Shown here piece after piece: positions 14,290 to 31,019 of a DNA stretch of 46,160 nucleotides. The first letter of the stretch is position 1. Each line of letters starts with the position of its first letter. The position numbers and the translations under genes were made by a program. The notes beneath the pieces are model-generated. The model did no database searches. It worked only from the letters and a program-made list of their open reading frames with translations, and was not told the origin of the DNA. Where the stretch lies: NCBI GenBank assembly GCA_028875185.1, contig JAPPFH010000099.1, positions 1 through 46,160 of the forward strand, read 5' to 3'. Origin of the DNA: Chloroflexota bacterium (GTDB lineage Bacteria > Chloroflexota > Anaerolineae > Aggregatilineales > Phototrophicaceae).

Positions 14290-14374
14290 ACAGAGACAGG
14301 AGGCGCCTAGACGATTCGATTCCTGCAGGCGGCAACACAGAAAGCAAAGAATTGTAGTTGGAGGAGAGATTATC

Positions 14375-15529
14375 ATGTTGCGAAAGCATCGCATTCTGAC
14401 AATGCTATTGCGCGTCGCTTTACTTGTTGCGCTGGTGGCGATTCCGGTTGTCGCTCAAGACATGCCCGGCAACCCAACAATGGATCAAGATCCGGGAGAT
14501 CCCGATCAGGCTGTTTATTGGGTGAGTTACAACTTTGAAGAAGGGGCGTATGAACTGGCTGAGGATGCCGAGGGCGACGCCATGATGGATTGGGACGCCT
14601 CTATGGCGGCTGAGGCGATGGGCGATGTCACGATTTGCTTCACGCCGGAGAGCGAAGAATTTGATTTCGATCTCAAAGTGAACCCCAGCATGGCTAATGC
14701 CGCGGAAGCCGCCGGGGTCGAATTGCTCGTCTTCAACAACGCCTACCCCAGCACGACGCAGCCGCTGGAGAACGCCGATGCCTGTGTCACGCGCGAGCCG
14801 GATATTGTCGTTTCCTTCAATGTCTTCGCCGAGCTGACCGAAGCGATCATGTCGAAATACAACGCGGAGAATATCCCGGTTATCGCGGTCGATGTGACGC
14901 ACCCCGGCTCGGTATTCTGGGGCGCTGATAATTGCGCGACCGGGCGCTACGCCGCGGAGTTCGCGGCCGCTTGGGCGGCAGAACACATGTGGCCTGAAGA
15001 AGAGATGGTCGTATTCACCGGGCTTGATCCCGCAGTCGGCGGCGCGCCAGCCTGCCGCAACACGGCATTCACCGATTACTTCAAGGAGAATCATCCGGGC
15101 ATTCCGGAGGAGAATTACTTTGATGTAGACATGCGCACGGCTGAGCTGGGACCGAACGCGGGCGCGCTGGCGGCCACGACCGACTGGCTGACCGCCAATC
15201 CGGACGCCAAATATATCGTGGCGACCAGCATCAACGATGACCGCGCCTTTGGCATCGCCAGCGCCATGTCGCAGGCGGATCGCGGCGATCCGACCGTCGA
15301 TGGCGTCGTCATTGGCAAGAATGCCGACGCGATCGCCCTTGACGCGATTCGTGCAGGCAACTCGCCCTTGGTCGGGACGGTATCGTTCTTCCCCGAGCGC
15401 TACGGTGACTTCATTGTTCCGCTAGCCCTGGACATTTTGGCCGGCAATGCCGTGCCGAGCATCGTCCGCGTGCCGCATGAGGTAATCAGCGCGGACAACA
15501 TAGATACCTACTACCCTGAAGAAGAATAG
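14375..15529 (+). CDS. CUT2 sugar-binding protein
   Basis: A 384-residue periplasmic-binding-protein of the type I (RbsB-like) fold. The start is the ATG at 14375 with GGAGGAGAG just upstream; the longer frame back to 14252 reads into the permease gene. The signal peptide ends in PVVA-QD without a lipobox cysteine. The sequence then shows the usual alternating strands, with MANAAEAAGVELLVFNN, IPVIAVDVTHPG and the second-lobe segment DGVVIGKNADAIALDAIRAG. It captures the sugar for the two preceding genes. A strong stem-loop follows its stop, typical for genes whose product is needed in excess. The sugar cannot be told from the sequence. Confidence 0.93.
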   Translation: MLRKHRILTMLLRVALLVALVAIPVVAQDMPGNPTMDQDPGDPDQAVYWVSYNFEEGAYELAEDAEGDAMMDWDASMAAEAMGDVTICFTPESEEFDFDLKVNPSMANAAEAAGVELLVFNNAYPSTTQPLENADACVTREPDIVVSFNVFAELTEAIMSKYNAENIPVIAVDVTHPGSVFWGADNCATGRYAAEFAAAWAAEHMWPEEEMVVFTGLDPAVGGAPACRNTAFTDYFKENHPGIPEENYFDVDMRTAELGPNAGALAATTDWLTANPDAKYIVATSINDDRAFGIASAMSQADRGDPTVDGVVIGKNADAIALDAIRAGNSPLVGTVSFFPERYGDFIVPLALDILAGNAVPSIVRVPHEVISADNIDTYYPEEE

Positions 15530-15551
15530 CGCCTGAGCCAGGCAGTGCGGA

Positions 15552-15577
15552 CTGGGGAGCGTTTGGGCGCTCCTCAG
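15552..15577 (+). terminator. stem-loop after the sugar-binding-protein gene
   Basis: CTGGGGAGCG and CGCTCCTCAG form a 10-bp stem (one G-U) around a TTTGGG loop. There is no T-run, so it is more likely a 3' mRNA stabiliser or partial attenuator between the transporter and the downstream enzymes than a full terminator. Confidence 0.55.
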
Positions 15578-15604
15578 CCCGCCACCTAGGGAAAGTGTGT
15601 TGTG

Positions 15605-16768
15605 ATGGGACGATCGATCACGATTACTGACGTGCATGCCTATCCATTAACATTTTCGGGCGATACAACAAACGAATACCCGGTTGCCTGCCCCATGTCG
15701 GTTTATCCCGCCTATCGCGCCAGCCGGCTTCTGTGGCGCGATGATTTCGGACCGCTAATCGTCAAGATTGAAACGGACGCCGGCATAGATGGCGTCGGCT
15801 ATACCTCTATGGGCAGTGTGATGTGCGCGTTGAGCATTGAGCTGCACCTGAAGCGTCTGCTCATTGGCGAGGATCCGCGGCGCGTTGAACGACTCAACGA
15901 CATTCTCGTGCGTTCCACCTATCATCAAGGGCGCGACGGTTATCTTATGCACGCCATCAGCGCGCTTGACCTGGCGCTGTGGGACATCAAAGGCAAAGAC
16001 GCTGGGCAAAGCGTCTGCCAATTGCTGGGCGGACCGATTCATGAAAGCATCCCCTGTTACATGACTGGCTATGATGATGAACGCGTAAAGCGCGAGCCAT
16101 TCAGCGGCATTAAATGGCCCCTGAAGTTCGGGCCGGCCAGCGGCAAATCGGGCTTTGCCGAGAATATTGAGGATATCGCCAACTTGCGCGAGCGCCTGGG
16201 GCCGGAGCCCGATATTATGCTTGATTGCTGGATGGGGCTGGATGTGCGTTATACATTGGCGCTGGCCCAGGCATTGCGAGACCTGAAAATCAAATGGATT
16301 GAAGAGCCGCTTGTCGCCGGTGATATCGATGGCTACCGCCAATTGCGTCGCGCATGGACAAGCGGCGCCTTAATCGCCTGCGGCGAACATGAGACGCTCA
16401 TTCGCGGCTTTGCGCCATTCGCCCGGGAGCGTTTGGTGGATGTCTGGCAGGCGGATGTTACCTGGGCCGGCGGCATCACGCAGATGCAGAAGATTGCTGC
16501 GCTCGCCCTTGATGCCGAAATCGCAATTATCCCACATTACGGTTATATCCCTTGGGCGGCGCAATTTATCCTAGCCTGCGCGGCCAGCCCCATGATCGAA
16601 TGGTACAACCTGGACATTGAGTTCCCTGGCGGCCAGCCACTGTTTGAAAGCGATGTGGATCTGCGCGAGGGACGCTTGTATCCCGGATCAGACCCGGGCT
16701 TCGGTATCGAGATGAACTGGGAAGTTGTTGAGCAGAATCTCGATCGCCGGGTTCAATTCCCGCGCTAG
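15605..16768 (+). CDS. L-rhamnonate dehydratase-like enolase-superfamily enzyme
   Basis: A mandelate racemase/enolase-superfamily protein of 387 residues. The magnesium ligands are D207 (MLDCWMGLD), E233 (KWIEEPL) and E261 (CGEHE), and the catalytic histidine is H311 (IIPHYG); the spacing 26, 28 and 50 closely follows L-rhamnonate dehydratase, as do the DCWM and KWIEE motifs. It would dehydrate a sugar acid to a 2-keto-3-deoxy acid. ATG at 15605 is preceded by AGGGAAAG; a GTG one codon upstream is the alternative. It lies downstream of a CUT2 transporter and upstream of an SDR, so all five genes probably serve one sugar. Substrate is inferred from motif spacing only. Confidence 0.88.
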   Translation: MGRSITITDVHAYPLTFSGDTTNEYPVACPMSVYPAYRASRLLWRDDFGPLIVKIETDAGIDGVGYTSMGSVMCALSIELHLKRLLIGEDPRRVERLNDILVRSTYHQGRDGYLMHAISALDLALWDIKGKDAGQSVCQLLGGPIHESIPCYMTGYDDERVKREPFSGIKWPLKFGPASGKSGFAENIEDIANLRERLGPEPDIMLDCWMGLDVRYTLALAQALRDLKIKWIEEPLVAGDIDGYRQLRRAWTSGALIACGEHETLIRGFAPFARERLVDVWQADVTWAGGITQMQKIAALALDAEIAIIPHYGYIPWAAQFILACAASPMIEWYNLDIEFPGGQPLFESDVDLREGRLYPGSDPGFGIEMNWEVVEQNLDRRVQFPR

Positions 16769-16782
16769 GCTGAGGCATTCGC

Positions 16783-17610
16783 ATGTTCTCCGACGTGACC
16801 TTTGACTTCTCTGGACGAGCGGCGCTTGTCACCGGCGTCGGCAGCCCCAGGGGAATCGGACGCGCCATACTGCGCGGATTCGCCGATGCCGGGGCGCGTG
16901 TCGCCGGCTGTGATATTGACGATGTCCAGCTTGCCGAGCTTGAGCGTGAACAGCCGGACGCATTTGTCAAGCATGTCGATGTTCGCGATCAGAGCCAGGT
17001 CGCCGACTTCGTTCGCGAGGTCGCAGCGCGATACGGCCGCATCGATGTTTTGGTGAACAATGCGGGCATCGCCCCTTTCTGTCCGATCATTGATCTGGAC
17101 GAATCCATTTGGGACATGACATTTGACACCAATGTGAAAGGCTACTTTCTCTTCGCTCAGGCAGTAGCGCGCCACATGATCGCCGAAGGAAAGGGCGGGA
17201 ACATCGTCAATGTGACATCCGTCAGCGCGCATGAATCCGGCGAGCACAAGGCGCACTACTGCGCCAGCAAAGCCGCGGTCGGCAGCCTAACCAAAGGTCT
17301 GGCGCTGGAATTGGCGCGTTACGGCATTCGCGTCAATGCCGTCGAGCCGGGAACGGTGGATACGCTCATCGTCAAGGACGCGTATCTGGCGGGACTGATG
17401 GACAGTTTGACGGAGGACCCAGGAACGCCCATCAAGCGGGTGGCGAAGGGCGGCGACATGGTTGGCGCGGTACTGTTTCTGTGCAGCGACGCGGCAAATT
17501 ATATGACCGGCTCAGCGGTTCTGGTTGACGGCGGCGGCTTCGCCGGCAGTCAAATGCCCGATCATGTGCTGCGCGAATACGAGAAAGCCAAGACTGCTTC
17601 GGATCAATAA
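16783..17610 (+). CDS. SDR-family sugar dehydrogenase
   Basis: A classical short-chain dehydrogenase of 275 residues. The cofactor motif is TGVGSPRGIGRA (17-28), the structural motif NNAG at 92-95, the active-site serine near 146 and the catalytic YxxxK as Y159 and K163. D45 after the second strand (AGCDIDD) indicates a preference for NAD. It follows the dehydratase after 14 bases. In non-phosphorylative deoxy-sugar pathways an SDR oxidises the sugar to its lactone, so the pair fits that scheme, with the 57-914 gene as possible lactonase. The true substrate is not visible. Confidence 0.9.
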   Translation: MFSDVTFDFSGRAALVTGVGSPRGIGRAILRGFADAGARVAGCDIDDVQLAELEREQPDAFVKHVDVRDQSQVADFVREVAARYGRIDVLVNNAGIAPFCPIIDLDESIWDMTFDTNVKGYFLFAQAVARHMIAEGKGGNIVNVTSVSAHESGEHKAHYCASKAAVGSLTKGLALELARYGIRVNAVEPGTVDTLIVKDAYLAGLMDSLTEDPGTPIKRVAKGGDMVGAVLFLCSDAANYMTGSAVLVDGGGFAGSQMPDHVLREYEKAKTASDQ

Positions 17611-18166: not shown

Positions 18167-20080
18167 ATGAATAGGCAACGCCTAATTGCATTTACGACGG
18201 CGCTATTTGTCCTGCTCGGCGGATTGACGCCGGTCTTCGGGCAGGACATGATGTACGGGGAAGCGCCGATGCTGGCGGAGCGGGTTGAGGCTGGTGAATT
18301 GCCGCCGGTGCACGAACGTTTGCCAAGCAATCCCAAAGTCATTCCGGTCGTGGACGCGATCGGCGCCTATGGCGGGACGCTGCGTTTCGGTGATATCGGC
18401 GAACGTATGGACGAAGGGCTGCGCATCCGTCATACCGGGCTCTTCCGCTACAACTTTACCGCCAGCGTCTATCAGGCGGATCTGGCCGAGAGCTGGGAAT
18501 GGACGAACGAGAATCGCACGCTGACCATCAAGCTGCGAGAAGGGCTGAAATGGTCGGACGGCGATGACTTCAACACCGAAGACTTCCGCTGGCATTGGGA
18601 AGATATCCTGAATGACCCTGATATCGCGCCCAACGGTCCAGGTGGTTTCTGGCGCGCTGGCGGCGAAGTGGCGACCTTTGAAGTCATCGACGATTACACA
18701 TTCAGCTATTCATGGGCGATTCCCTATCCGATCGCGATGGACAGTTTCGGGCGCACGCATTTCTCCAGCGACAACAGTTTGTACGGTCCCTCGCATTGGC
18801 TGAAGCAGTATCACGCCAAATACAACGATAATGCGCAGGCGCTCGCCGAAGAGGCGGGCTTGGAAACCTGGGTTGACCTCGTCAACAGCAAGCGCGCGCA
18901 AGGCTACAATCTTTCGGCGCAGCCACTTGACCGCCCCTATATGGACAGTTGGGTGCCGATCATCATCGAGAGCGACCGCGTGCTCTTGGAGCGCAACCCA
19001 TTCTTCCATCAGGTGGACGAAGAGGGCAATCAGTTGCCTTACATGGATAACATTGAAGTGTCGCTGGCTGGCGATCTCGACATTTATGCCTTGCGACTGT
19101 CCGCAGGCGAGCTTGATTTCGGCGTGCGCTATACGCGCCCGACTGATCTGAGGCTCTACCGCGCCGAAGAGGAAAGCGGCGGCTTCACCACTTATATCGC
19201 ACAGTCGCTGCGTCCATCGGAGTTCTCGCTTTTCCCCAACCAGAATTACCCCGACGATGCCTTCCGTGAGCTCTTCCAGAATGTCGACTTCCGTGTGGCG
19301 CTGTCAATGGCCATTGACCGTGACGAAATGAACGATGTGCTTTTCTTCGGGCTGGCGGCGCCACATCCGGCGACGCCGCTGAAAACGCTTCCCTGGTTCA
19401 ATGACGATTGGTTCAGCGAGAAGATCGAATACCATCCGGATAAAGCCAACGCATTGCTCGACGGCTTGGGCTTGACCGAACGCGATGATGCCGGCTTCCG
19501 ACTGCTTGCTGATGGCCGGCGCGTTGCGATCATCGCCCATGGGCTAGTCGACCATCAGTCTGGTTGCGAATTGATGGCAAGTGATTACGTTGACATCGGC
19601 GTCGAATTAATCTGCCAAGGCGCCACGCCGGATCTGATATTCGATCTGTATACCAACGGCGAAATCATGACCGTGATGTGGCATATCGGCCGCGCAACGC
19701 TGTTTGGACGGGGCACGCCCGATCATTTCGCGGTGAATGAACCAGCGCGCCATTTCTGGGCTCACGGCTGGACCACATGGATATCTTCTGGTGGATCAGC
19801 CGGCATTGAACCGCCGCAGGAGATTAAGGATCTCAACACGCTTTGGGACGAATTCAGCCAGTATCCGAGCGATTCAGCCGAAGCGGCCGAGCTCGGCGCC
19901 GCCTACTTCGCCTATTGGGGTGAAGAACTTCCGATCATTCCGTCTGTTGGCTTGACGCCACAACCGGTCATCTACTCAAACCGGTTGCGCAACGTGCCGA
20001 TAGAGGGTCTCTTCTGGGGCTCCGATACCAACTTCTACGCGCCCTTCCACGTTGAGCAGTGGTATATCGACGACATGTAG
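18167..20080 (+). CDS. family 5 extracellular solute-binding protein (peptide/oligosaccharide type)
   Basis: A 637-residue SBP_bac_5 protein. The start at 18167 has GAGGAG upstream; the longer frame begins far upstream without support. The signal peptide ends PVFG-QD with no lipobox cysteine. After it come the family features: YGGTLRFGDIG, LAESWEWTNENRTLTIKLRE, GLKWSDGDDFNTEDFRWHWE and VDFRVALSMAIDRDEMN. The family binds peptides, but in several bacterial groups also oligosaccharides; the neighbouring Asp-box and sugar-acid enzymes point to a glycan. It is the first gene of a ten-gene cluster and its own mRNA end is protected by a 15-bp hairpin. Confidence 0.94.
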   Translation: MNRQRLIAFTTALFVLLGGLTPVFGQDMMYGEAPMLAERVEAGELPPVHERLPSNPKVIPVVDAIGAYGGTLRFGDIGERMDEGLRIRHTGLFRYNFTASVYQADLAESWEWTNENRTLTIKLREGLKWSDGDDFNTEDFRWHWEDILNDPDIAPNGPGGFWRAGGEVATFEVIDDYTFSYSWAIPYPIAMDSFGRTHFSSDNSLYGPSHWLKQYHAKYNDNAQALAEEAGLETWVDLVNSKRAQGYNLSAQPLDRPYMDSWVPIIIESDRVLLERNPFFHQVDEEGNQLPYMDNIEVSLAGDLDIYALRLSAGELDFGVRYTRPTDLRLYRAEEESGGFTTYIAQSLRPSEFSLFPNQNYPDDAFRELFQNVDFRVALSMAIDRDEMNDVLFFGLAAPHPATPLKTLPWFNDDWFSEKIEYHPDKANALLDGLGLTERDDAGFRLLADGRRVAIIAHGLVDHQSGCELMASDYVDIGVELICQGATPDLIFDLYTNGEIMTVMWHIGRATLFGRGTPDHFAVNEPARHFWAHGWTTWISSGGSAGIEPPQEIKDLNTLWDEFSQYPSDSAEAAELGAAYFAYWGEELPIIPSVGLTPQPVIYSNRLRNVPIEGLFWGSDTNFYAPFHVEQWYIDDM

Positions 20081-20098
20081 AGCTCGTTCAATTTGTGT

Positions 20099-20132
20099 GA
20101 AGCGGGATGTCTCAAAAGAGGCATCCCGCTTC
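20099..20132 (+). terminator. 15-bp stem-loop after the binding-protein gene
   Basis: GAAGCGGGATGTCTC and GAGGCATCCCGCTTC pair completely (one G-U) around an AAAA loop. No T-run follows, and the permease starts 38 bases later, so partial termination or protection of the binding-protein mRNA is likely. Confidence 0.7.
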
Positions 20133-20170
20133 TGGCGTGATTCAAGCGTGAGCCGCTGCCAAGGCTTTCA

Positions 20171-21169
20171 ATGAATTTCAGCAAATATCTGCTCCAGCGC
20201 CTCATTTACGCGTTTCTCGTTCTGATTGTCATCAGCTTTTTGATTTTTATGATCGTCCAGCTCCCGCGCGGCGATGCGGTCGACCGCATCGTTAACGCGC
20301 GTCAAGCGCAAGGCGATATCATCACCGAGGAAGACGAAGCGGCATTGCGCGCGCAATACGGTCTCGACAAGCCCGTCTTCGTCCAGTACTTCATTTGGGC
20401 GGCCCAGTTTGCGCGTGGCAACATGGGGCACTCCATGTTGGGCATTCCCGTGGACAAACTCATCAATGAGCGAATTGCGGCGACTGTCCTGCTATCGGTC
20501 ATTTCGCTGATTGTGACCTATGCGCTGGCTGTGCCAATCGGCATTTACAGCGCGACGCATCAGTACAGCCTGGGCGATTATTTCTGGACCTTCGTCGGCT
20601 TCATCGGGCTGGCGACCCCGAACTTTCTTCTGGCGCTAATTCTGCTGTTCCTGTTTCATAAGTTTTTCGGCTTGAGTATTGGCGGCTTGTTTTCGCCGGG
20701 CGTTGAAGAGCAGCCCTGGTCTCCCGCGAAAGCGCTTGACCTGCTCAATCATCTCTGGATCCCGATAATTGTGATCGTGACGGCGCAGACGGCTGGTACG
20801 ATTCGCACGATGAGGGCGACATTGTTGGACGAATTGGGTCAGCAGTATGTGGTGACGGCACGGGCGAAGGGCCTGCGGTATCGCCAACTGCTTTTTAAGT
20901 ATCCGGTGCGGCTGGCGCTGAACCCGGTCGTGAATTCCATCGGCTATATTCTGCCGCGTCTAATTTCGGGGCAGACCATCGTCGCTATCGTTCTGAATCT
21001 GCCTACTTTGGGACCGCTTTTGTTCAGCGCGCTGCTTGCTGAGGATTTGGAGCTGGCAACCAGCATTCTGATGATTCAGAGCATATTGGCGGTCATCGGC
21101 GTGATCTTGGGCGATATCATATTGTCGATGTATGACCCGCGCATCCGAATGGAAAAGGGGGTGACATAA
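20171..21169 (+). CDS. peptide/oligosaccharide ABC permease, DppB type
   Basis: A 332-residue inner-membrane permease: N-terminal helix YLLQRLIYAFLVLIVISFLI, the conserved extracytoplasmic loop with GLDKPVFVQYFIW and FARGNMGHSM, and the EAA cytoplasmic loop ELGQQYVVTARAKGLRYRQL. It pairs with the DppC-type protein encoded next. Its last bases carry a very strong ribosome-binding site for the following gene (21153-21164). Confidence 0.95.
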   Translation: MNFSKYLLQRLIYAFLVLIVISFLIFMIVQLPRGDAVDRIVNARQAQGDIITEEDEAALRAQYGLDKPVFVQYFIWAAQFARGNMGHSMLGIPVDKLINERIAATVLLSVISLIVTYALAVPIGIYSATHQYSLGDYFWTFVGFIGLATPNFLLALILLFLFHKFFGLSIGGLFSPGVEEQPWSPAKALDLLNHLWIPIIVIVTAQTAGTIRTMRATLLDELGQQYVVTARAKGLRYRQLLFKYPVRLALNPVVNSIGYILPRLISGQTIVAIVLNLPTLGPLLFSALLAEDLELATSILMIQSILAVIGVILGDIILSMYDPRIRMEKGVT

Positions 21170-21171
21170 TA
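21153..21171 (+). promoter_or_regulatory. ribosome-binding site pointing to an ATA start of the DppC gene
   Basis: AAAAGGGGGTGACAT is close to the full complement of the 16S rRNA tail. Seven bases after the G-run comes ATA (21169-21171), in frame with the DppC-type protein and overlapping the preceding TAA by one base. No ATG, GTG or TTG stands at that spot. Confidence 0.45.
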
Positions 21172-22317
21172 TCGGCGTCAATCGATGAAGCCGGCGGAAC
21201 GCCCCAAGCAAGTGGCGCGATCTCGGCGGCGGAAGAGCGCTACTATATCGCCTCTCAGCAGCAATTGATCTGGCGCCGTTTCAAGCGACATCGGCTTGCG
21301 TTAATTTCCGTCGTGATCCTGATACTAATGTATTTCCTGGCTTTCACTTACGAATTTTGGACGCCATATCGCGCAGTCACCCAGCATCAGGGATTCGTCA
21401 ACACACCGCCGACGCCTATTCGCTTTTTTGACGCCGAGGGCAGTTTTGTCGGTCCTTTTGTCTACGGACTCAATTACGAGCTCAACCTTGATACATTTGA
21501 GCGCATTTATACCGAAGACACTAACACAATCCACCGCATCCGGTTTTTCACTCGAGGCGAGCCCTACCGTTTTTGGGGCCGACTTGACATGGATTTGCAC
21601 TTCTTTGACGCTGGCGAGGGCAAGGTATTCTTGCTCGGCGCCGATGCCTTGGGCCGCGATGTTTTTTCACGCATTTTGACCGCCAGCCGCATCAGTCTGA
21701 CTATTGGCTTGGTTGGTGTTTTGCTGAGCTTCTTTCTAGGCGCGACGCTCGGTGGCGTCTCGGGATATTATGGCGGCCTGGTTGACATCGTGATTATGCG
21801 GATCACCGAGATCTTGAGCGCAATACCGCAGATCCCGCTTTGGATCGCTCTGGCGGCAATCGTACCGATTGACTGGCCAGTCACACGGACTTATTTTGCG
21901 ATCACCATTATCTTGTCGACGATGACGTGGACGGGATTAGCCCGGGCGGTCCGCGCCAAGCTGCTGGAAATGCGCGAACAGGATTACATCATGGCGGCAA
22001 AAATCGCGGGCGCCAGTGATATTCGCATTATCTATGATCATCTATTGCCAGGCTATATCAGCTTCCTCATCGTCAATATCACTATCGCGATCCCGGGCAT
22101 GATCCTGGGTGAAACGGCGCTCAGCTTTCTTGGCTTAGGCATACGTCCCCCGGCGGTCAGTTGGGGCACGCTGCTCGAAGGCGCGCAAAACATCTCAAAC
22201 ATCGCTTTGTATCCCTGGCTGCTGACACCGGCGCTCTTCGTCATTGTGACTGTGCTGCTGTTCAACTTTGTAGGCGACGGCTTGCGCGATGCGGCCGACC
22301 CCTTCAAGGAATTGTGA
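21169..22317 (+). CDS. peptide/oligosaccharide ABC permease, DppC type
   Basis: A DppC-family permease with the characteristic ALGRDVFSRILTASRISLTIG, the EAA loop REQDYIMAAKIAGASDIRII and GETALSFLGLGIRPPAVSWG. The first canonical start is TTG at 21265, but coding continues upstream without a stop to 21169: the segment AEERYYIASQQQLIWRRF before that TTG is the usual N-terminal lead-in of DppC proteins. The extended start falls on an ATA seven bases after a near-perfect ribosome site. I therefore place the start at 21169 and treat it as non-canonical or mutated; if ATA does not work, the product starts at 21265 and lacks 32 residues. A large extracytoplasmic insert follows helix 1. Confidence 0.9.
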   Translation: MSASIDEAGGTPQASGAISAAEERYYIASQQQLIWRRFKRHRLALISVVILILMYFLAFTYEFWTPYRAVTQHQGFVNTPPTPIRFFDAEGSFVGPFVYGLNYELNLDTFERIYTEDTNTIHRIRFFTRGEPYRFWGRLDMDLHFFDAGEGKVFLLGADALGRDVFSRILTASRISLTIGLVGVLLSFFLGATLGGVSGYYGGLVDIVIMRITEILSAIPQIPLWIALAAIVPIDWPVTRTYFAITIILSTMTWTGLARAVRAKLLEMREQDYIMAAKIAGASDIRIIYDHLLPGYISFLIVNITIAIPGMILGETALSFLGLGIRPPAVSWGTLLEGAQNISNIALYPWLLTPALFVIVTVLLFNFVGDGLRDAADPFKEL

Positions 22318-22319
22318 TC

Positions 22320-23309
22320 ATGTCTGATGTCGTGCTCGAGGTGAAAGACCTGCACACCTATTTCGAGCTTGAAGAGGGCACGCTGAAAGCGGTGAACGGT
22401 GTATCGTTCACAATCAGAAAGAACCGCACCCTGGGCATCGTAGGCGAGTCCGGCTGTGGCAAGAGCGTGACGGCGCAATCCATCATGCGCATCACGCCGA
22501 AAAAGAACAGCCGGATCAATGGGCAGATTCTGCTTCATCATGATTCTGGACTGATTGACATCGCGCGGTTGGATGAAGACAGTGATGAAATGCGCGATCT
22601 GCGCGGGCGCGATATCGCCATGATCTTCCAAGAGCCGATGACTGCTTTCTCTCCGGTGCACACGATTGGCAATCAGATTATGGAGGCGCTGTTTGTTCAT
22701 GGCGAGAAAGACAAGCGCGCGGCGCGCAATCACATTATCTCTCTGCTGGACGAGGTAGGGATACCGGCGCCCGAAAGACGCATAGACGAGTATTCTTTTC
22801 AGCTTTCGGGTGGGATGCGCCAACGCAGCATGATCGCGATGGCAATCGTGCTTAATCCGCGCCTTCTGATAGCGGACGAGCCGACAACTGCATTGGATGT
22901 CACCATTCAGTCGCAGATACTGCGTCTGTTGAAGCGGCTGCAGCGGGATAATGGCATGGCGATTATGTTCATCACCCACGATCTGGGGGTCATAGCGAAT
23001 ATGGCTGATGACGTTGCTGTGATGTATCTGGGTAAAATCGTAGAATACGGCGCGTCGCGAGAAATTTTCAAGAATCCCAAACACCCGTATACGAAAGGCT
23101 TGCTCCGCTCGATCCCAAAATTCGGCGAGAAAGAAGGGGCGCATCTGGCAACGATCAAAGGGACGGTGCCGGTGCCTTTGGACCCGCCAGACGCTTGCCC
23201 TTTCGCCAATCGATGTGGCGAATTCATCGCCGGGAAATGTGATATCCGGATGCCGGCGGCTGTTCAAGTGGCGCCGGGCCATAGCGTGAATTGTGTACTT
23301 TACGAATAA
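22320..23309 (+). CDS. peptide/oligosaccharide ABC ATPase, DppD type
   Basis: A 329-residue ATPase: Walker [11 protein letters not shown], signature [10 protein letters not shown], Walker [14 protein letters not shown], and the oligopeptide-type C-terminal region with [12 protein letters not shown] and the cysteine-containing [13 protein letters not shown]. The start at 22320 lies two bases after the DppC stop with AAGGA upstream; the longer frame reads back into DppC. It works as a heterodimer with the DppF-type ATPase, from which it is separated by an Asp-box gene, an unusual order. Confidence 0.95.
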
Positions 23310-23335
23310 ATCGAAATGAGGCGGAGCAGACGATT

Positions 23336-24682
23336 GTGAAGAGCCTATATCTCGAGAATGAATGGGAACGCACCGAGCCGGATTTGCTGGCTTATATCCC
23401 GGAAAACTTTGAAGGACCGGGCGCCTGCAATCAGCACTTTCTGGTTGTGAAAACGCCGACGGGCGCCTTGCTAGGATTTTGGACGCAGTCAACCTTCGAG
23501 AATGCCGGCGACCAGCGGGTGGTCTTCAGCCGTTCCCTAGATCGCGGTCGGACTTGGTCGGAGCCGCAAGTGATCGATGGTCCCAAACCGGGCGATGCGG
23601 ATGGGACGGGACTGGCCAGCTGGGGCTTCCCGATTGTCGCGCCTAATTTGCTAGGGGACGGCGCCCACCGCGTCTACTACATCTATAACAAGAATGTCGG
23701 AATTGATGATGCGCGTGAGGACACGACCGGAATGGTACGCTGCCGCTATTCTGATGATGACGGGCGCACGTGGAGCGGCGCTGCCTATGATTTCCCGATA
23801 GCGCCGAGCGCCATCAGCCATCCTGACCCAGAGGCGCCACCCAATTGGATCGTCTATCAGAACATTTTCATCACGCCGGAAAATCACGTGCTGGCTCCCT
23901 TTACGCGTTGGGCGAGCAATACATATGATGCAGCCGTCAAGCTGGATCTGAATTTGCTTGAACATTGGTCGGAGATTTGGTTCTTGCGCTTCGAGAATAT
24001 TTTGAGCGAGCGTGACGTGGACAAGTTGATCGTTAGTACCTGGCCGAAAGCGCCGCATGGCATTCAAGTCGAGAATCCATACCGCCCTGGAGTCAGCGTC
24101 GCCCAGGAGCCGACCGTACAAGCACTGTCTGACGGACGGCTTATCTGCGTGTTTCGAACCCTGCTGGGCGCCAATTATTATGCGCTATCCGAAGATGATG
24201 GCCGCTCATGGGACGAGCCTCGGGTATTGCGATACGAACCTGGCGGCAATCCGGTCTTGAATCCGATGTCGCCAAGCCCACTGTATCGCCTGCACGACGG
24301 GCGATATCTGCTGTTGTTTTATAACAATGACGGCACGGCCAACGGCGGCAAATCGCCAGTGGATTCGAAGCACAATCGTTATCCGGTCTGGTTGACCGTG
24401 GGGCGAGAGATCCCGGGTGAAAAGGAGCATCCACTGCGCTTTGGACCGCCGAAGATTTTCGCCACGTCGAATGGCGTGTTGCTACCCTATACCGGCGGTA
24501 CCCAGGTCGCAGTTTACCCCAGCTTGGTTGATGACGGTGAAGAGCGCATCCTGTTTTATCCCGATCGCAAACATTATCTGCTGGGGAAATTCATCACCGA
24601 TGAATGGCTGCGCGATTGCGACCCTGCCCATAACACGGCGCGAATGCGCCCGCCAATAGCGGTAGAAGCGATAAGAGGATAG
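23336..24682 (+). CDS. Asp-box (BNR) sialidase-like protein, cytoplasmic
   Basis: A six-bladed beta-propeller protein of about 448 residues. Three Asp-box motifs are visible: SLDRGRTW (67-74), SDDDGRTW (139-146) and SEDDGRSW (285-292). The FRIP arginine motif of classical GH33 sialidases is not seen, so the enzyme may cleave another acidic or neutral sugar, or bind it. There is no signal peptide, so it acts on imported material. It lies between the two ATPases of the importer, a position that ties it to the transported substrate. The GTG at 23336 is chosen because the frame upstream overlaps the DppD gene and lacks a ribosome site; GGCGGAG precedes it at some distance. Confidence 0.85.
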   Translation: MKSLYLENEWERTEPDLLAYIPENFEGPGACNQHFLVVKTPTGALLGFWTQSTFENAGDQRVVFSRSLDRGRTWSEPQVIDGPKPGDADGTGLASWGFPIVAPNLLGDGAHRVYYIYNKNVGIDDAREDTTGMVRCRYSDDDGRTWSGAAYDFPIAPSAISHPDPEAPPNWIVYQNIFITPENHVLAPFTRWASNTYDAAVKLDLNLLEHWSEIWFLRFENILSERDVDKLIVSTWPKAPHGIQVENPYRPGVSVAQEPTVQALSDGRLICVFRTLLGANYYALSEDDGRSWDEPRVLRYEPGGNPVLNPMSPSPLYRLHDGRYLLLFYNNDGTANGGKSPVDSKHNRYPVWLTVGREIPGEKEHPLRFGPPKIFATSNGVLLPYTGGTQVAVYPSLVDDGEERILFYPDRKHYLLGKFITDEWLRDCDPAHNTARMRPPIAVEAIRG

Positions 24683-24688
24683 AAGGGT

Positions 24689-25702
24689 ATGGGCGGCTCC
24701 AGCCTGCTGGAAGTGCGGGGACTGACGAAGTACTTTCCGATAGAAAAGGGCTTGTTGCGGCGCGTCGTTGGGCATGTGCGCGCCGTCGACCATGTGAGTT
24801 TGAGCATCAGCAAGGGGCGCACTCTGGGTTTAGTCGGCGAATCGGGCTCGGGCAAGACGACATTGGGCCGCTGTGTCTTGCGCGCCATAGACCTGACGGC
24901 TGGTGAAATCCTGTTTCATCATGAAGGAAAGACGACTGACCTGGCGCAATTGAGTCGACGCGAAATGCGTGAATTCCGCAAGCATCTGCAGATGATATTT
25001 CAGGATCCGTATTCCAGCCTGGACCCGCGAAAAACCGTCTTCGACATTGTCAGCGAACCCTTGCGCATCAACAGAATCGCAGCGGGCAAGGCGCTTGAAG
25101 ACCGCGTTCGCACTGTGCTGGAACTGGTTGGATTGGATGTCCGCTATATGAAGCGTTTTCCCCACGCTTTTAGCGGCGGTCAACGTCAGAGGATTGGGAT
25201 CGCGCGCGCGCTGAGCATTAACCCGCAGCTGATCGTTTGTGACGAAGCGGTATCGGCATTGGATGTTTCTGTGCAGGCGCAGATACTGAATTTATTGAAG
25301 GATTTGCAGGCGGATTTTGACTTGACGTATCTGTTTATCGCCCACGACCTGAGCGTTGTCGAACATGTGTCGGATGACGTCGCGGTGATGTACGTGGGCA
25401 AGCTGGTGGAAAAGGCGCCAACACAAGAACTGTTTAAGAATCCGCGACACCCCTACACTGAAGCGCTCTTGTCCGCCATCCCGCGTCCGGACCCGGACAG
25501 GCCGCTGCCCGAGACTGGCGGAATTGAAGGCGAATTGCCGGACCCGGCGAATCCGCCGCCCGGCTGTTACTTTCATCCACGCTGCCCTTATGCCGAGCAG
25601 ATTTGCCGGGAGCGTGAACCGCCTTTGGTCGAGGTCGGGCCGGGCCATACTTCCGCGTGTCACTTCGTCGACGAGCTGGAATTGCAGGGACTTGAGGATT
25701 AA
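24689..25702 (+). CDS. peptide/oligosaccharide ABC ATPase, DppF type
   Basis: A 337-residue ATPase: Walker A GESGSGKTT, Q-loop MIFQDPYSSLDPRKTV, signature FSGGQRQRIGIARAL, Walker B LIVCDEAVSALDV (Ala in place of the usual Pro, a common variant here), and the C-terminal oligopeptide domain with CYFHPRCPYAEQICRE. The start has AGAAGGG upstream. It completes the importer of genes 18167-23309 and follows the first Asp-box gene after six bases. Confidence 0.96.
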   Translation: MGGSSLLEVRGLTKYFPIEKGLLRRVVGHVRAVDHVSLSISKGRTLGLVGESGSGKTTLGRCVLRAIDLTAGEILFHHEGKTTDLAQLSRREMREFRKHLQMIFQDPYSSLDPRKTVFDIVSEPLRINRIAAGKALEDRVRTVLELVGLDVRYMKRFPHAFSGGQRQRIGIARALSINPQLIVCDEAVSALDVSVQAQILNLLKDLQADFDLTYLFIAHDLSVVEHVSDDVAVMYVGKLVEKAPTQELFKNPRHPYTEALLSAIPRPDPDRPLPETGGIEGELPDPANPPPGCYFHPRCPYAEQICREREPPLVEVGPGHTSACHFVDELELQGLED

Positions 25703-25711
25703 GGATTTACC

Positions 25712-27544
25712 ATGCCGGACAATCGACATATTGCCAGCGGATTCGAAATTCCTACCGAGCGCTACAGTGACCAACCTTATGTGGTCAAAACGGATGACGG
25801 CGCTTGGCTGTGTACGTTAACGACCGGAGGCGGCGTCGAAGGCGCATCCGGCCAGCATATCATTGCCACGCGAAGCATTGATCAGGGGCGAACCTGGTCC
25901 GCGCCGGTGGATGTGGAACCGGCGGATGGCCCCGAAGCCTCCTACGCGGCGCCTCTCAAGGCGCCTGGCGGGCGCATTTACCTCTTTTACAATCACAACA
26001 CCGATGATCGCCGCTATGTAATTGCAGATGACCCGCCGTACAAAGATGGGAAATGCTACCGCGTGGATTCGCAGGGCTATTTCGTCTTCAAATACAGCGA
26101 TGATCACGGCCGGAGCTGGTCGTCGAAACGCCACAATGTGCCCGTGCGCGAGATGGCGATCGACCGGGAAAATCCATATGGTGGCAAGATCCGTTACTTC
26201 TGGAATGTCGGTAAGCCGTTCATCCATGAAGGCGCGGCTTACGTTTCGCTACATAAAGTTGGCGGCCTCGGGCATGGATTCTTCACGCGTTCGGAAGGCG
26301 TCTTGCTGCGAAGCGAGAACATCATGACGCAATCGGACCCGGAAAGAATTGTCTGGGAGACTCTGCCCGATGGCGACGCCGGCTTGCGCGCGCCGCCCGG
26401 GGGCGGCCCGATCGCGGAAGAACAATCCTATGTCGTACTCAGTGACGACTCTATCTACAGCGTTTATCGCACGATTGATGGGCATCCCGCATTCGCCTAC
26501 AGCCGCGATGGCGGCCGGACTTGGACACAGCCCGCTTACAAGCGTTATGCCAATGGTCGATTGATGAAGCATCCACGCGCGGCCAACTTCGCCTGGAAAT
26601 GCGAGAATGGCAGATACCTGTATTGGTTCCACAACCACGGAGGCAATTGGTACGAAGATCGGAATCCGGTCTGGCTCTGCGGCGGTGTCGAAATCGACTC
26701 GGATGAAGGACGCGTCATTCGCTGGTCTCAACCGGAAATCGCGCTCTATGACGATGATAGTTATGTCCGCATAAGCTATCCCGACTTGGTAGAAGATGGT
26801 GGATGCACTTTTCTGATTGAAACGCAGAAGGATAAAGCGCGCGCGCATCAGTTGGACCCCGCCCTGCTCGAAGGGATTTGGCGTCAGGTAAGCGAAGGCG
26901 GTTCGCTGACGACTGAGGAAACCCTTGTCGAATGGAACAGCGCCGACGCTTCTGATGATCATGTAATGATTCCACCCTTGCCCCCGTTCAACACAAGGGA
27001 TCATCAACGTCCGGATTATGGCGCCAAGGACTTGCGTTCCGGATTCACAGTTGAAGTCTGGCTAGAGTTGGATCAACTTAATGGCGGTGAAACCTTGGTG
27101 GATGCGCGCGCCCAAAACGGGCAGGGCTGGGCATTGCAGTCTACCGCTCGTGGCACGGTGGAGATCATTCTGAATGACGGGCGAAGCGAGAGCCGCTGGG
27201 ACTGCGATCCCGATATGCTGGGCGCGGGCGCGCGGCATCACCTGGCGGTAGTCGTCGATGGCGGACCCAAGATCATCTCGTTCGTGGTTGACGGCGTCTT
27301 GTGCGACGGTGGCGCATGCAGACAATTTGGCTGGGGGCGCTTTAACTCGGCTCTGCGCCATGTGAATAGCGCCGACAAGAACCCGATCATTGCGCCCGGC
27401 AGTTCAGGCAGGCAAGATCACGCGCCCGCCGCAGCCGATGCGCAGCGGGTGGCCGTCTCATCGGGCGTTCGCTCGCTGCGGATTTATGATCGGGCACTGC
27501 GAACATTCGAGGTCATCGGCAATTACCTTTCGGATTTGTCCTAG
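25712..27544 (+). CDS. Asp-box (BNR) protein with C-terminal LamG-like domain
   Basis: A 610-residue protein with no signal peptide. Residues 1-430 are a beta-propeller with Asp-boxes SIDQGRTW (55-62), SDDHGRSW (129-136) and SRDGGRTW (264-271). Residues about 435-608 form a concanavalin/laminin-G-like jelly roll (FTVEVWLELDQL, GETLVDARAQNGQGWAL, GARHHLAVVVDGG, VRSLRIYDRAL). Propeller plus lectin-like domain suggests a carbohydrate-active enzyme. It is similar in plan but not a copy of the 23336 protein, which lacks the C-terminal domain. It starts 9 bases after dppF with AAGGAT upstream. The bond it cleaves is unknown. Confidence 0.88.
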   Translation: MPDNRHIASGFEIPTERYSDQPYVVKTDDGAWLCTLTTGGGVEGASGQHIIATRSIDQGRTWSAPVDVEPADGPEASYAAPLKAPGGRIYLFYNHNTDDRRYVIADDPPYKDGKCYRVDSQGYFVFKYSDDHGRSWSSKRHNVPVREMAIDRENPYGGKIRYFWNVGKPFIHEGAAYVSLHKVGGLGHGFFTRSEGVLLRSENIMTQSDPERIVWETLPDGDAGLRAPPGGGPIAEEQSYVVLSDDSIYSVYRTIDGHPAFAYSRDGGRTWTQPAYKRYANGRLMKHPRAANFAWKCENGRYLYWFHNHGGNWYEDRNPVWLCGGVEIDSDEGRVIRWSQPEIALYDDDSYVRISYPDLVEDGGCTFLIETQKDKARAHQLDPALLEGIWRQVSEGGSLTTEETLVEWNSADASDDHVMIPPLPPFNTRDHQRPDYGAKDLRSGFTVEVWLELDQLNGGETLVDARAQNGQGWALQSTARGTVEIILNDGRSESRWDCDPDMLGAGARHHLAVVVDGGPKIISFVVDGVLCDGGACRQFGWGRFNSALRHVNSADKNPIIAPGSSGRQDHAPAAADAQRVAVSSGVRSLRIYDRALRTFEVIGNYLSDLS

Positions 27545-27562
27545 TAAAGCGGGACGGCAATT

Positions 27563-28780
27563 ATGGGGCAATTTGACAGCGCCCTCAAATCGGAAGCGTT
27601 CAATCAAAACCCGTATCCGGTATATCATCAGTTGCGGCGCGAAGCCCCGGTCTACTGGAGCGACGCCTGGGGCTGCTGGATGCTGACCCGTTATGACGAC
27701 ATCACCTGGACGCTGCAGGATTATCAGACCTTCACCAGCCTGGGGCGGTTGACCGCCACGATGGACTTGCCCGAACCGCTTCGGGAGAAGGTGGAACCGC
27801 TGGTGCGTCATTATTCGCAGGGGCTAATCAACGTCGATCCGCCCGACCATACCAGAATGCGCAAACTGGTTCACATGGCTTTCACCCCGCGCGCCATTCG
27901 CAAAATGGCAGCATATATCGAGGATATCGTCGAGCGGTTAATTGATGAGCGGATCGAGCGCGGCGAGATGGATGTGATTTGGGATTTCTCGTATCCGCTG
28001 CCGGTCACCGTGATTGCTGAAATGATGGGCATTCCGGTAGAAGACCATGCAAAGTTCAAAGCCTGGTCACGGGAGATTGTTGGGTTCATGGCGACGCCGA
28101 AGCCCAGTGCCGAAGTCCTACTGAATTCACAGGACGCCTTGCTATCCATGCAGCAATACTTCCGTGAGATCTACGCCAAGCGGCGGCAACAGCCAGAAGA
28201 CGATCTGATCACCGCCCTGGTGCTGGCGGAGCTTGAAGGGGACAAGCTGAGCGAAGAAGAGATGGTTTCGAGCTGTGTGACGATATTGATCGGCGGGCAT
28301 GAGACGACAACCTATCTTATCGCCAATGGCGTGTACGCCTTGCTTCAGCATCCCGATCAATTGAGACTGCTGCGTGACAATCCCGCTTTGGACGTTTCGG
28401 CGACCGAGGAATTTCTGCGTTACGAAGGACCGTTCCAGCGCAACCGCCGCATCGCCACCCGGGACGTAAAAATCGGCGACATGCTCGTCAAGCGGGGGCA
28501 GTTGATCATGCAGTTTCTCGGTGCCGCCAACCGTGATCCAGCTCAGTTTTCAGATCCCGATACGCTCGACATCAGGCGATCGCCAAATAAGCACCTGGCT
28601 TTCGGCTATGGACCGCATTTCTGCGTGGGCGCGCCCCTCGGCCGCCTCGAAGCGTCTACCGCGATTCGCGCCCTTTTGCGGAAGCTGCGAGGCATCCGAT
28701 TGGCTCGCGAAGATCTGCAATGGAACAGCGCTCTATTCCGCGGGTTGAAGTCGCTGCCAATCCAATTCGACCAAGCCTGA
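27563..28780 (+). CDS. cytochrome P450
   Basis: A soluble bacterial P450 of 405 residues. The I-helix oxygen-activation motif is GGHETTT (244-250), the ExxR pair is E283/R286, and the heme thiolate is C354 in FGYGPHFCVG. It hydroxylates or demethylates a small substrate and needs two electrons from a ferredoxin and its reductase; neither gene is adjacent. It sits inside an uptake and sugar-acid operon, 18 bases after the LamG-type gene, and its stop overlaps the next start. P450-mediated O-demethylation of methylated sugars is known from marine bacteria; that or removal of an aglycone is my inference. Confidence 0.95.
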   Translation: MGQFDSALKSEAFNQNPYPVYHQLRREAPVYWSDAWGCWMLTRYDDITWTLQDYQTFTSLGRLTATMDLPEPLREKVEPLVRHYSQGLINVDPPDHTRMRKLVHMAFTPRAIRKMAAYIEDIVERLIDERIERGEMDVIWDFSYPLPVTVIAEMMGIPVEDHAKFKAWSREIVGFMATPKPSAEVLLNSQDALLSMQQYFREIYAKRRQQPEDDLITALVLAELEGDKLSEEEMVSSCVTILIGGHETTTYLIANGVYALLQHPDQLRLLRDNPALDVSATEEFLRYEGPFQRNRRIATRDVKIGDMLVKRGQLIMQFLGAANRDPAQFSDPDTLDIRRSPNKHLAFGYGPHFCVGAPLGRLEASTAIRALLRKLRGIRLAREDLQWNSALFRGLKSLPIQFDQA

Positions 28781-29946
28781 TGAATATCGCCGCTGTTAAG
28801 ACCTATCTTGTCGAAGGCATCAAATACAATTGGACGCTGGTAAAGGTCGAGACCGATGTCGGCATTCATGGCTGGGGGGAAGCGACCAACTGGCCCGGCT
28901 CGCCGCTGATCGAAGCCGCCTGCCAGCATGTCGGGCAGTTTGTCATCGGCATGGATGCGCGCCGCATTGATTTCATCTGGACGAAAATCTACCGAGATTT
29001 ACATTGGCTTGGGCAGGCAGGTCCTTTGCTGTCAGCTATCAGCGCCATTGACATCGCTCTGTGGGACATCAAGGGCAAGGCGCTGGATGCGCCCGTGTAC
29101 GAATTGCTGGGCGGGAGTTATCGCCGGCGGATCCAACTCTACGCAAATTACTGGTTCATCGACGGCGGGCACTCCGCCGCCAGCTATGCCCGCCAGGCGA
29201 AGGAGACGGTTGCCGCCGGTTTCACTGCGCTCAAATTCGATCCCTTTGCCCATGTTCATTATGGCTACGGCGACGATCTCAGCGACAGAAACCAACTCAG
29301 CGAGGGACAGAAGCAACTTGCGCTGGATCTAGTGGCAGCGGTGGCGGAGGCAGTTGGCCCGGATGTGCCGCTGGCAATCGAAACGCACGCCTTCCTCAAT
29401 GGACCTACCGCCGTCGAAATGGCGCGCCGGCTCGCCCAGCTTGGATTCAACTGCATGTGGTATGAAGAACCCGCCTTGCCGGAAACTCCCGACGCCATCG
29501 CCGATATTCGCCGGCGAATCCCGTTGCCGGTTTGCGTCGGGGAGCGTTTGCATTCACGCTTCATGGCCAAGCGCATCCTTGATTTGCGCGCTGCCGATAT
29601 TCTTATGCCCGACATCACGCGCTGCGGCGGAATCAGTGAAATGAGAAAGATCGCGAATATGGCTGAAGCCTACAATGTGCCAATCGCACCGCACAATCCA
29701 AACGGTCCAATATCAACGATCGCTTCGGCGCATACAATGGCGACCATTCCCAACTTCTATCGGCAGGAGTTTATGGTCAAAGATGTCGCCTGGCGCGATA
29801 GCGCTCTCTCTGACGCGCTGCCGATTGATGAAGGATATTTTGTACTGCCGGATCGTCCCGGCCTGGGCTATGACCTGGACGAGACGATTCTTCTGGAGCG
29901 CCCGGGCTTGCGGTCAGTGTCGACGGGCCGAACTTACTACGTTTGA
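28780..29946 (+). CDS. galactonate-dehydratase-like enolase-superfamily enzyme
   Basis: A 388-residue mandelate racemase/enolase-superfamily protein. E201-T-H203 takes the place of the DxH motif of D-galactonate dehydratase, E229 (WYEEP) and E255 (VGERL) are the other metal ligands, and H305 (APHNPNGP) is the second catalytic histidine; the last two spacings (26 and 50) equal those of that family. The Asp-to-Glu change at the first ligand is notable. The start is the ATG overlapping the P450 stop (TGATG); the frame upstream reads P450 code. It would dehydrate a sugar acid produced from the imported glycan. Confidence 0.9.
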   Translation: MNIAAVKTYLVEGIKYNWTLVKVETDVGIHGWGEATNWPGSPLIEAACQHVGQFVIGMDARRIDFIWTKIYRDLHWLGQAGPLLSAISAIDIALWDIKGKALDAPVYELLGGSYRRRIQLYANYWFIDGGHSAASYARQAKETVAAGFTALKFDPFAHVHYGYGDDLSDRNQLSEGQKQLALDLVAAVAEAVGPDVPLAIETHAFLNGPTAVEMARRLAQLGFNCMWYEEPALPETPDAIADIRRRIPLPVCVGERLHSRFMAKRILDLRAADILMPDITRCGGISEMRKIANMAEAYNVPIAPHNPNGPISTIASAHTMATIPNFYRQEFMVKDVAWRDSALSDALPIDEGYFVLPDRPGLGYDLDETILLERPGLRSVSTGRTYYV

Positions 29947-30038
29947 ATCAGAAGCGGACGTCCACCGTTTCGCAACACGGCGGGACAAGGACGAGTTCAA
30001 GCGCATGCGAGCAAAACATTCACGACGAAGGGCGATAT

Positions 30039-31019
30039 GTGAAAATGTATAAGGTACTGATTACGAATGCGGTACCGCAAATCGCGCTACAGCCGCTGGC
30101 GGGCATCGCAGAGATCATTCAAGGTCCAGCTGGCGGACGTTTAATGCCGCGCGAGACGGTTTTGCGCCACGCGCCGACGCTGCATGGCATCATCAATCAG
30201 GCCGAGTTGACGGTGGATGCGGAATTATTGGATGTCGCTCCTCGGCTTAGGGTGGTCGCCAATGTGGCGATCGGTGTAAACAATCTTGATCTAAAGCTGA
30301 TGGAGCAACGCGGCGTTTGGGCGACAAATGTGCCGGACGCGTTTGTGGCGTCAACCGCCGATTGCACCTTGGCGCTGATATTAAACTTGATGCGTGGCAT
30401 CAAACCTGCTGACCAATATGTGCGTTCGGGGCGCTGGCAAAACGATGGTTTCCAGCCAGGTATCTGGGATGGCGCGCTGCTGGCGGGGAAGACGCTCGGC
30501 ATTGTTGGATATGGCCGCATCGGCAAAGCAGTCGCGCGACGCGCCAAAGCATTTGATATGCGGGTCATTTTTCATAGCGGCAGAGCTTCGGCGGACAAAG
30601 CGTTTCGGACGCTTGACGATCTCTTGACTGAGGCTGATGTGGTTACATTGCACACGCCGCTCACGGCGAGCACGCATCATCTGATTGACGCCAAGAAGCT
30701 GGCGCAAATGAAAAGCAAGGCGTTCTTGATCAACATGGCGCGGGGCCCGGTGGTGCATGAGCAGGCATTGGTTGACGCGCTGCTGGACGGCAAGATCGCG
30801 GGCGCGGCGCTGGACGTGTTCGAATTTGAACCGGAGGTGCATCCCGCGCTGCTGCAAATGCCAAACGTCTGCCTGACACCACATATCGGCGGGGGAACCC
30901 GTGAGAGCCGAATGGCGGCGCGCCATCGGTGCGCGGAAAACGTTGCCGCGGCGCTGCGAGGCGAACGACCCACTACGCCGGTCAACAATCCGCGCGATCG
31001 TGCCGCCGACCTATCTTAA
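30039..31019 (+). CDS. D-2-hydroxyacid dehydrogenase (glyoxylate/hydroxypyruvate reductase-like)
   Basis: A 326-residue NAD(P)-dependent dehydrogenase of the formate/glycerate dehydrogenase family. The dinucleotide motif is GYGRIG (157-162); catalytic residues are R235 (NMARGP), E264 (VFEFEPEVH) and H282 (LTPHIGGGT). It interconverts a 2-keto acid and a D-2-hydroxy acid in the cytoplasm, a fitting partner for the preceding dehydratase, whose product is a 2-keto acid. GTG at 30039 is six bases after GAAGGG and is preferred; ATG at 30045 is the alternative. It is the last gene of the ten-gene cluster. Confidence 0.92.
   Translation: MKMYKVLITNAVPQIALQPLAGIAEIIQGPAGGRLMPRETVLRHAPTLHGIINQAELTVDAELLDVAPRLRVVANVAIGVNNLDLKLMEQRGVWATNVPDAFVASTADCTLALILNLMRGIKPADQYVRSGRWQNDGFQPGIWDGALLAGKTLGIVGYGRIGKAVARRAKAFDMRVIFHSGRASADKAFRTLDDLLTEADVVTLHTPLTASTHHLIDAKKLAQMKSKAFLINMARGPVVHEQALVDALLDGKIAGAALDVFEFEPEVHPALLQMPNVCLTPHIGGGTRESRMAARHRCAENVAAALRGERPTTPVNNPRDRAADLS

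Follow-up and report, generated by a model that had tools for sequence, protein, structure and literature searches.

A conserved Chloroflexota gene cluster joining an ABC importer, two Asp-box proteins and a cytochrome P450: a candidate operon for carbohydrate import and catabolism

A cluster of ten genes in an uncultured Chloroflexota bacterium of the class Anaerolineae (GenBank assembly GCA_028875185.1) encodes an SBP_bac_5/Dpp-type ABC importer, two Asp-box proteins designated BNR1 and BNR2, a cytochrome P450, an enolase-superfamily protein and a D-isomer-specific 2-hydroxyacid dehydrogenase. The cluster resides on contig JAPPFH010000099.1, whose entire length of 46,160 nucleotides (nt) is referred to here as the window, and which is contig C37 of a 4.37 Mb genome in 158 contigs. 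All ten genes occupy the + strand at 18167-31019, as the initial annotation had described, and Pfam matches back every assigned name. The solute-binding protein (SBP), DppBCDF, BNR1, BNR2 and the P450 make up a conserved core, and we lean toward the view that the cluster is an operon serving to import and catabolize a carbohydrate-type oligomer or glycoconjugate. Its parts are of known types and their combination is unusual; no paper joining these genes was found in a literature search from which subscription journals were mostly absent.

We infer a route in which the binding protein would hand a substrate, presumably of sugar type, to the importer, after which BNR1 and BNR2 would cleave it inside the cell as glycosidases whose target is not sialic acid. 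The released unit would then be oxidized by the P450, most likely through O-dealkylation of an ether-substituted sugar, and the tail enzymes (the enolase-superfamily protein, an RraA-like aldolase in some relatives, and the dehydrogenase) would channel the product into 2-keto acid chemistry. The P450 itself would belong among P450s that are repeatedly placed in importer operons. P450s are rarely viewed as members of sugar-uptake operons, and the importer-BNR-P450 core, together with the recurrence of related P450s in importer operons of the same class, suggests that modified sugars are entered by an oxidative route that has been little explored.

Conservation and arrangement of the cluster

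Scanned with BNR1, the species-genome collection returned 14 loci, 12 of which (L029-L039 and L041) derive from close relatives with BNR1 proteins 82-94% identical to that of the window; their DppB proteins are 91-98% identical. These relatives presumably come from sponges, to judge from isolate names, although a literature search for some of those names did not confirm it. The genes for DppB, DppC, DppD, BNR1 and DppF appear in the same order in all 12 loci. The SBP gene lies upstream in 11, the contig of L038 beginning just before DppB, and BNR2 and the P450 lie downstream in 11, the contig of L032 stopping after DppF, such that gene order is preserved as far as the contigs extend. The median dN/dS per gene is 0.04-0.13 across the ten genes (P450 0.08, BNR1 0.07, BNR2 0.10), based on 6 to 12 relatives per gene and a median dS of 0.8-1.5 that renders the values rough. 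All ten genes are under purifying selection. Because gene order is kept in relatives and dN/dS is low for every gene, the cluster represents more than a chance assembly.

Genes for BNR1, a P450 orthologue (at least 81% identity) and an SBP orthologue (at least 90%) are found in the same nine of 25 same-genus genomes, a set that includes the genome under study, and in none of the other 16; these counts and those of the named loci are not independent, as the two sets overlap (L029, L030, L037 and L039). BNR2 is the second match in the same nine genomes. Six more same-genus genomes are concordant, with BNR1, BNR2 and the P450 present in three and all absent from the other three. Some core genes are on separate contigs in G004 and G010, and the SBP gene is split over two contigs in G024. 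Failure of the P450 and BNR genes to accompany the transporter in relatives had been set beforehand as the observation that would speak against the initial annotation; instead, the core is kept, and SBP, BNR1 and P450 are all-or-none in the searched genomes of the genus.

The tight spacing and overlaps claimed for the whole cluster hold for part of it. BNR1 and DppF are separated by 6 nt, DppF and BNR2 by 9 nt, and BNR2 and the P450 by 18 nt, and the ATG of the enolase gene overlaps the P450 stop codon (TGATG, 28778-28782). Looser gaps separate SBP from DppB (90 nt), DppB from DppC (95 nt) and the enolase gene from the dehydrogenase gene (98 nt, if the latter starts with the Met at 30045). We did not count as a gene the minus-strand open reading frame (ORF) at 22053-23492, which runs antisense to conserved genes. 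No tRNA was found within the window, and a scan that returned 15 promoter-like sites (8.6 expected) and 11 terminator-like sites (13.6 expected) was uninformative.

The binding protein and the two Asp-box proteins

The importer genes encode the SBP_bac_5 extracellular binding protein (18167..20080, +; PF00496, 156 bits), the DppB-type permease (20171..21169, +; PF00528 and PF19300), the DppC-type permease (21265..22317, +; PF00528 and OppC_N), the DppD-type ATPase (22314..23309, +; ABC_tran and oligo_HPY) and the DppF-type ATPase (24689..25702, +; ABC_tran and oligo_HPY). The SBP frame opens at 18065, with the Met at 18167 preceding a signal-peptide-like stretch, and the start of DppD, inferred from the relative L029 and candidate start codons, is either the GTG at 22314 or the ATG at 22320. 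A binding protein, two permeases and two oligo_HPY ATPases thus occur together as an SBP_bac_5/Dpp-type ABC importer. Pfam and gene order bear out the earlier description of a complete importer interleaved with two Asp-box proteins, one of them LamG-like.

Among solved structures, the nearest matches of the SBP are the pectin-binding protein SPH1118 of Sphingomonas sp. A1 (7ver, 261 bits), 5ipw (249 bits) and an alpha-galactoside-binding protein (6epy, 144 bits), so that the closest relatives of known structure for which a sugar ligand is named bind pectin and alpha-galactosides. The window protein belongs to the same SBP_bac_5 branch as SPH1118, which it matches over residues 31-616 of 637, and both work with an ABC importer of the oligopeptide type. 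A sugar ligand is plausible on these alignments. In the SPH1118 structural study, the arginines contacting the ligand are R57, R438, R466 and R496 (PMC9314435), and only one of these four, R57, is kept in the window protein (R86). Among the ligand positions given there, N53, E216 and N324 correspond to E83, N248 and R349, and R438, R466, D483 and R496 to H463, P488, H506 and D519. With its ligand residues so replaced, pectin was set aside as the ligand. The imported compound had been annotated as an acidic or substituted glycan; the sugar relatives agree with a glycan, whereas the acidic character is unsupported, because three of the four SPH1118 ligand arginines differ and both Asp-box proteins lack the RIP arginine described below.

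SBP_bac_5 is nevertheless mostly a peptide family, which counts against a sugar ligand, and the cluster might instead be a peptide or opine-type importer with unrelated passengers as neighbors, the Asp-box proteins and the P450 serving other roles. We consider this improbable. It would be in keeping with the presence of the SBP gene on a different contig from BNR1 and the P450 in G010, and also with the statement of the SPH1118 authors that their protein may bind oligopeptides as well as pectin (PMC7055323). However, BNR1 is embedded among the importer genes, after DppD and, in the window, 6 nt upstream of DppF; this order is conserved, and other families of the class also have importer and BNR1-type genes together.

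BNR1 (23336..24682, +; BNR_2, 60 bits; GTG start inferred from relatives) and BNR2 (25712..27544, +; BNR_2, 49 bits, with a C-terminal LamG-like domain, Laminin_G_3, 41 bits) were said to be signal-less, and inspection by eye revealed no N-terminal signal in either protein or in the P450. An AF2 model of BNR1 (pLDDT 80, pTM 0.85) resembles GH33 sialidases in Foldseek (best E 4.7e-15, TM 0.59, 16% identity), and the weaker model of BNR2 (pLDDT 66) likewise matches sialidases. Both proteins are thus predicted to adopt a sialidase-type propeller, less securely for BNR2, and each carries three Asp boxes, as in the GH33 enzymes NanA, NanH and the P. gingivalis sialidase. In HMMER alignments to solved sialidases, E257 and R273 of BNR1 (numbered from window position 23339) and E237 and R253 of BNR2 fall on the sialidase Glu and the Arg 16 residues later, a spacing equal to that between E407 and R423 of NanH. 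A later Arg is also conserved (R347 in BNR1, R317 in BNR2), and a Tyr present as Y393 in 16 of 18 BNR1 alignment rows and as Y356 in all 13 BNR2 rows is a candidate for the sialidase Tyr, to judge from motif and spacing rather than from superposition.

The two families depart from GH33 sialidases at other catalytic positions, in addition to their missing signal peptides and identity of about 16%. The column of the RIP arginine holds Q in 14, E in two, Y in one and I in one of the 18 BNR1-type rows and D in all 13 BNR2 rows, with E in 7/7 and D in 6/6 further distant rows; two other BNR_2 proteins that lie outside both families (in L040 and L045) do have Arg there. No acid/base Asp is present at the aligned position in the BNR1 and BNR2 rows. 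One column away stands an invariant Glu (E54 in BNR1, 18/18 rows; E43 in BNR2, 13/13 rows), and this Glu is retained in 6/7 and 6/6 of the distant rows. Because the RIP arginine and the acid/base Asp are missing, we do not call BNR1 and BNR2 sialidases. The predicted folds and retained residues suggest a glycosidase role, in which catalysis would rely on the Tyr/Glu pair, the two arginines and the substitute Glu as acid/base.

A true sialic-acid cluster, importing sialylated oligosaccharides for BNR1 and BNR2 to process as cytoplasmic sialidases, is on this evidence very unlikely. The fold, the GH33 identity of the top matches and the retained Glu, Tyr and two Arg speak for it, a NanE epimerase is encoded on another contig of the genome, and GH33 is reported to be enriched in sponge-associated metagenome-assembled genomes (MAGs; PMC8163846) and to be plentiful in a Caldilineae bin from one sponge (PMC6306507). 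Against it, the cluster contains no sialic-acid genes, the expected acid/base Asp is replaced by the Glu one column off, and the RIP arginine is missing from both families; alteration of the RIP-type arginine R212 inactivated T. forsythia NanH (PMC9472817). Sialidase activity was therefore dropped as the primary explanation on account of the missing arginine and Asp, NanE notwithstanding. Surveys of symbiont genomes could well tally genes resembling BNR1 and BNR2 as GH33 sialidases, and the altered sites of these proteins imply that such counts would need a check of these residues before being read as sialic-acid use.

The P450 and its homologues

The P450 gene (27563..28780, +; PF00067, p450, 110 bits) encodes the heme motif FGYGPHFC(V/L)G together with EFLR and GGHETT, all of which are present in each of 12 orthologues including that of the window. 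To judge from the sequences, the heme FxxGxHxCxG and ExxR motifs and the I-helix acid-alcohol pair are intact.

Importer operons are a frequent setting for close homologues of this P450 in other members of the class. With an E threshold of 1e-100, 396 class genomes yielded 31 homologues from beyond the genus; the stretch L125, fetched as a control, duplicates the 44% genus homologue L065 and was therefore excluded from both sets. Of the 31 homologues, 24 have an importer permease no more than 5 kb away on their own strand, as against none of 17 distant P450s (19 were used, two of them without a model match). This simple distance test is weak, given that 8 of 20 random stretches, at coordinates of our own choosing in related genomes, have a permease within 5 kb on any strand. 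Because these genomes are rich in importers, it was replaced by asking for an importer in the same directon, which is the case for 19/31 homologues as compared with 9/59 random genes from the 20 stretches and 0/7 distant P450s (12 of the 19 could not be placed). After collapse at 60% identity, 8/13 groups are represented in importer directons by one or more members (p = 0.0013 versus random genes and 0.015 versus distant P450s), or 7/13 when groups are scored by member majority (p = 0.006 and 0.044). On the P450 tree the importer label requires nine changes, compared with a shuffled mean of 14.2 (0/500 shuffles as low), a contrast inflated by near-copies; well-supported branches alone require at least five.

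The transporters beside these homologues vary between Dpp-type and MalFG-type, and RraA-like, HpcH and GFO_IDH_MocA genes adjoin some of them. Ten hand-picked neighbors were assigned by Pfam as Ldh_2, galactarate/altronate dehydratase (at L080, where the P450 itself is outside an importer directon), PhyH (two), GHL10, BNR-like, SBP_bac_1, Cpn60-like (two) and an M20 peptidase. At L082 (G394:C34), a P450 homologue lies near a PhyH gene, a BNR/Sortilin-like protein and a Cpn60-like gene.

Several of our results weigh against the proposed carbohydrate operon. According to Pfam, no ferredoxin or reductase is encoded among the ten genes. A search of the genome confined to three ferredoxin signatures, with other ferredoxin families and reductases outside its scope, yielded no Fer4_15 match, five Fer2 matches in open frames of 167-951 amino acids, and no convincing candidate from a small-ORF pattern scan, whose matches look like chance antisense frames. 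Among the 31 P450 homologues, 11 are one group of near-copies in a single genus and 12 lie outside any importer directon, and the tree does not fix the position of the window P450. Two of the three genus homologues at 43-44% identity adjoin ABC permeases and an M55 peptidase (L063, L064), the M20 peptidase lies beside the homologue at L087, and the Cpn60-like genes are at L082 and L086. The co-occurrence of core genes within the genus follows from physical linkage and is hence no independent proof, and internal stops interrupt the BNR1 frame of G019 and the SBP piece of G004. Finally, a strong sulfatase match occurs at only one close-relative cluster (L034), with a weak one at L039. The former accompanies a second SBP_bac_5 importer directly after the P450 (L034:9740-15421).

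An alternative is that the operon imports a glycosylated small molecule, such as a steroid, terpene or polyketide glycoside; the Asp-box proteins would remove its sugars, leaving the aglycone to be hydroxylated by the P450. The 60 best-listed solved relatives of the P450 include natural-product and steroid enzymes, ancestral CYP125 and CYP142 among them (216-286 bits), and the cleft of SPH1118 is large (PMC9314435). At E 1e-10 or better, however, 402 solved sequences match the P450 and point to no single substrate; the ten genes include none for aglycone degradation (acyl-CoA, ring-cleavage), and several neighbors of the P450 homologues are sugar-acid genes. We regard this alternative as unlikely.

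Returning to the carbohydrate operon, a wider proposal can be offered, though only tentatively: a soluble-P450 clade of Anaerolineae may have specialized in oxidizing polar sugar derivatives as the opening intracellular reaction of catabolic operons with ABC importers, and may in this genus have been joined to an older importer module with a previously undescribed RIP-less family of sialidase-fold glycosidases.

A putatively older module, the optional tail and known systems

Among the 396 class genomes, five from outside the genus matched the BNR1 profile at E 1e-120 or better, in addition to L040. A Dpp-type importer, an SBP_bac_5 protein and a BNR1-type gene occur together in five of these six Chloroflexota cases (L040, G083, G047, G394 and G243), with only the end of the SBP_bac_5 protein, at the edge of the examined stretch, in G394 and G243; in G172, no importer genes were seen in the stretch examined. 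None of the six stretches contains a relative of the P450, although G394 and G243 carry P450 homologues elsewhere in the genome. From this recurrence outside the genus without a P450, it looks as though the importer and BNR1 form the older unit, which the P450 joined later, in this genus. The BNR2 family is present in 15 non-genus genomes of the 396, with importer genes recognized beside it, among the BNR2 stretches retrieved, in G083 and G047 only, a count limited by short contigs and unlabeled genes.

Neighbors of the non-genus BNR1-type genes encode 2-hydroxyacid dehydrogenase, enolase, GntR, HpcH, UROD-like, PhyH, GFO_IDH_MocA or GH32/43-like proteins. At L044 and L047 (G394 and G243), the BNR1-type gene accompanies importer, enolase-like and GFO_IDH_MocA genes in stretches free of P450 genes, with a PhyH-type dioxygenase also lying between these genes at L044. 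The remaining locus of the original scan, L042 from an Omnitrophota MAG, encodes a BNR1 at 62% identity; SDR, GFO_IDH_MocA and UROD-like genes accompany it, and DppB is absent from the 12 kb examined. UROD-superfamily genes adjoin BNR1-type genes there and, in other families, at L045 and L048. Relatives of UROD include corrinoid methyltransferases, and it is conceivable that the UROD-like genes near BNR1 are a methyl-transfer counterpart of the P450.

The enolase-superfamily gene (28780..29946, +; MR_MLE_C, 214 bits, and MR_MLE_N; galactonate-dehydratase-like) and the dehydrogenase gene (30045..31019, +; PF02826, 2-Hacid_dh_C, 203 bits, and PF00389; Met at 30045 inferred from candidate starts) are present in the window, as annotated, but are not constant members of the cluster. 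The enolase is full-length in 6/11 close-relative loci (L033, L036, L037, L038, L039 and L041), reduced to fragments around an internal deletion in the nearest relative, L029, and absent from that place in L030, L031, L034 and L035. The dehydrogenase occurs in 7/11, and in 3/11 (L036, L038 and L039) an RraA-like aldolase gene lies between the two. The two sugar-acid-type enzymes thus make up a dispensable, optional tail. In G004, the P450 and enolase are fused in a single 786-amino-acid open frame with both Pfam domains (L073:181-2541, G004:C194), a hint, from one MAG only, that the two are functionally linked.

Other importer genes were noted nearby. At 12529-17610 of the window, genes for an enolase-superfamily protein and an SDR come after a separate Rbs-type importer, and on the minus strand at 37444-44392, Rbs-type importer genes accompany an HpcH/HpaI aldolase and a 725-amino-acid aminotransferase frame whose long N-terminal part is unassigned. 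Elsewhere in the genome (L068, G000:C132), a Dpp-type importer is found with two sulfatase-like genes and two more large genes, one matching BNR_2.

The tail enolase shares its MR_MLE domains with D-galactonate dehydratase and its relatives, and the motifs YEEP, GER and APHN are present in 8/8 orthologues checked. It differs in scoring 263.8 bits against NCBIfam PRK14017, under the equivalog cut-off of 311, and in the motif AIETH (7/8 orthologues), which has Glu at the position of an Asp that we take to be a metal ligand. The cluster as a whole can be compared with the system for 6-O-methyl-D-galactose in Formosa and Zobellia (PMC10033563), the marine case found, where a P450 likewise resides within a carbohydrate-use cluster. 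According to that report, the Formosa/Zobellia P450 acts with its own redox partners, a ferredoxin and a ferredoxin reductase, and an ADH gene lies nearby; the ten genes of the window include none of these three, and their importer is of the Dpp type. Even with no redox partner encoded among its genes, the window cluster could, by analogy, act similarly to the 6-O-methyl-galactose system.

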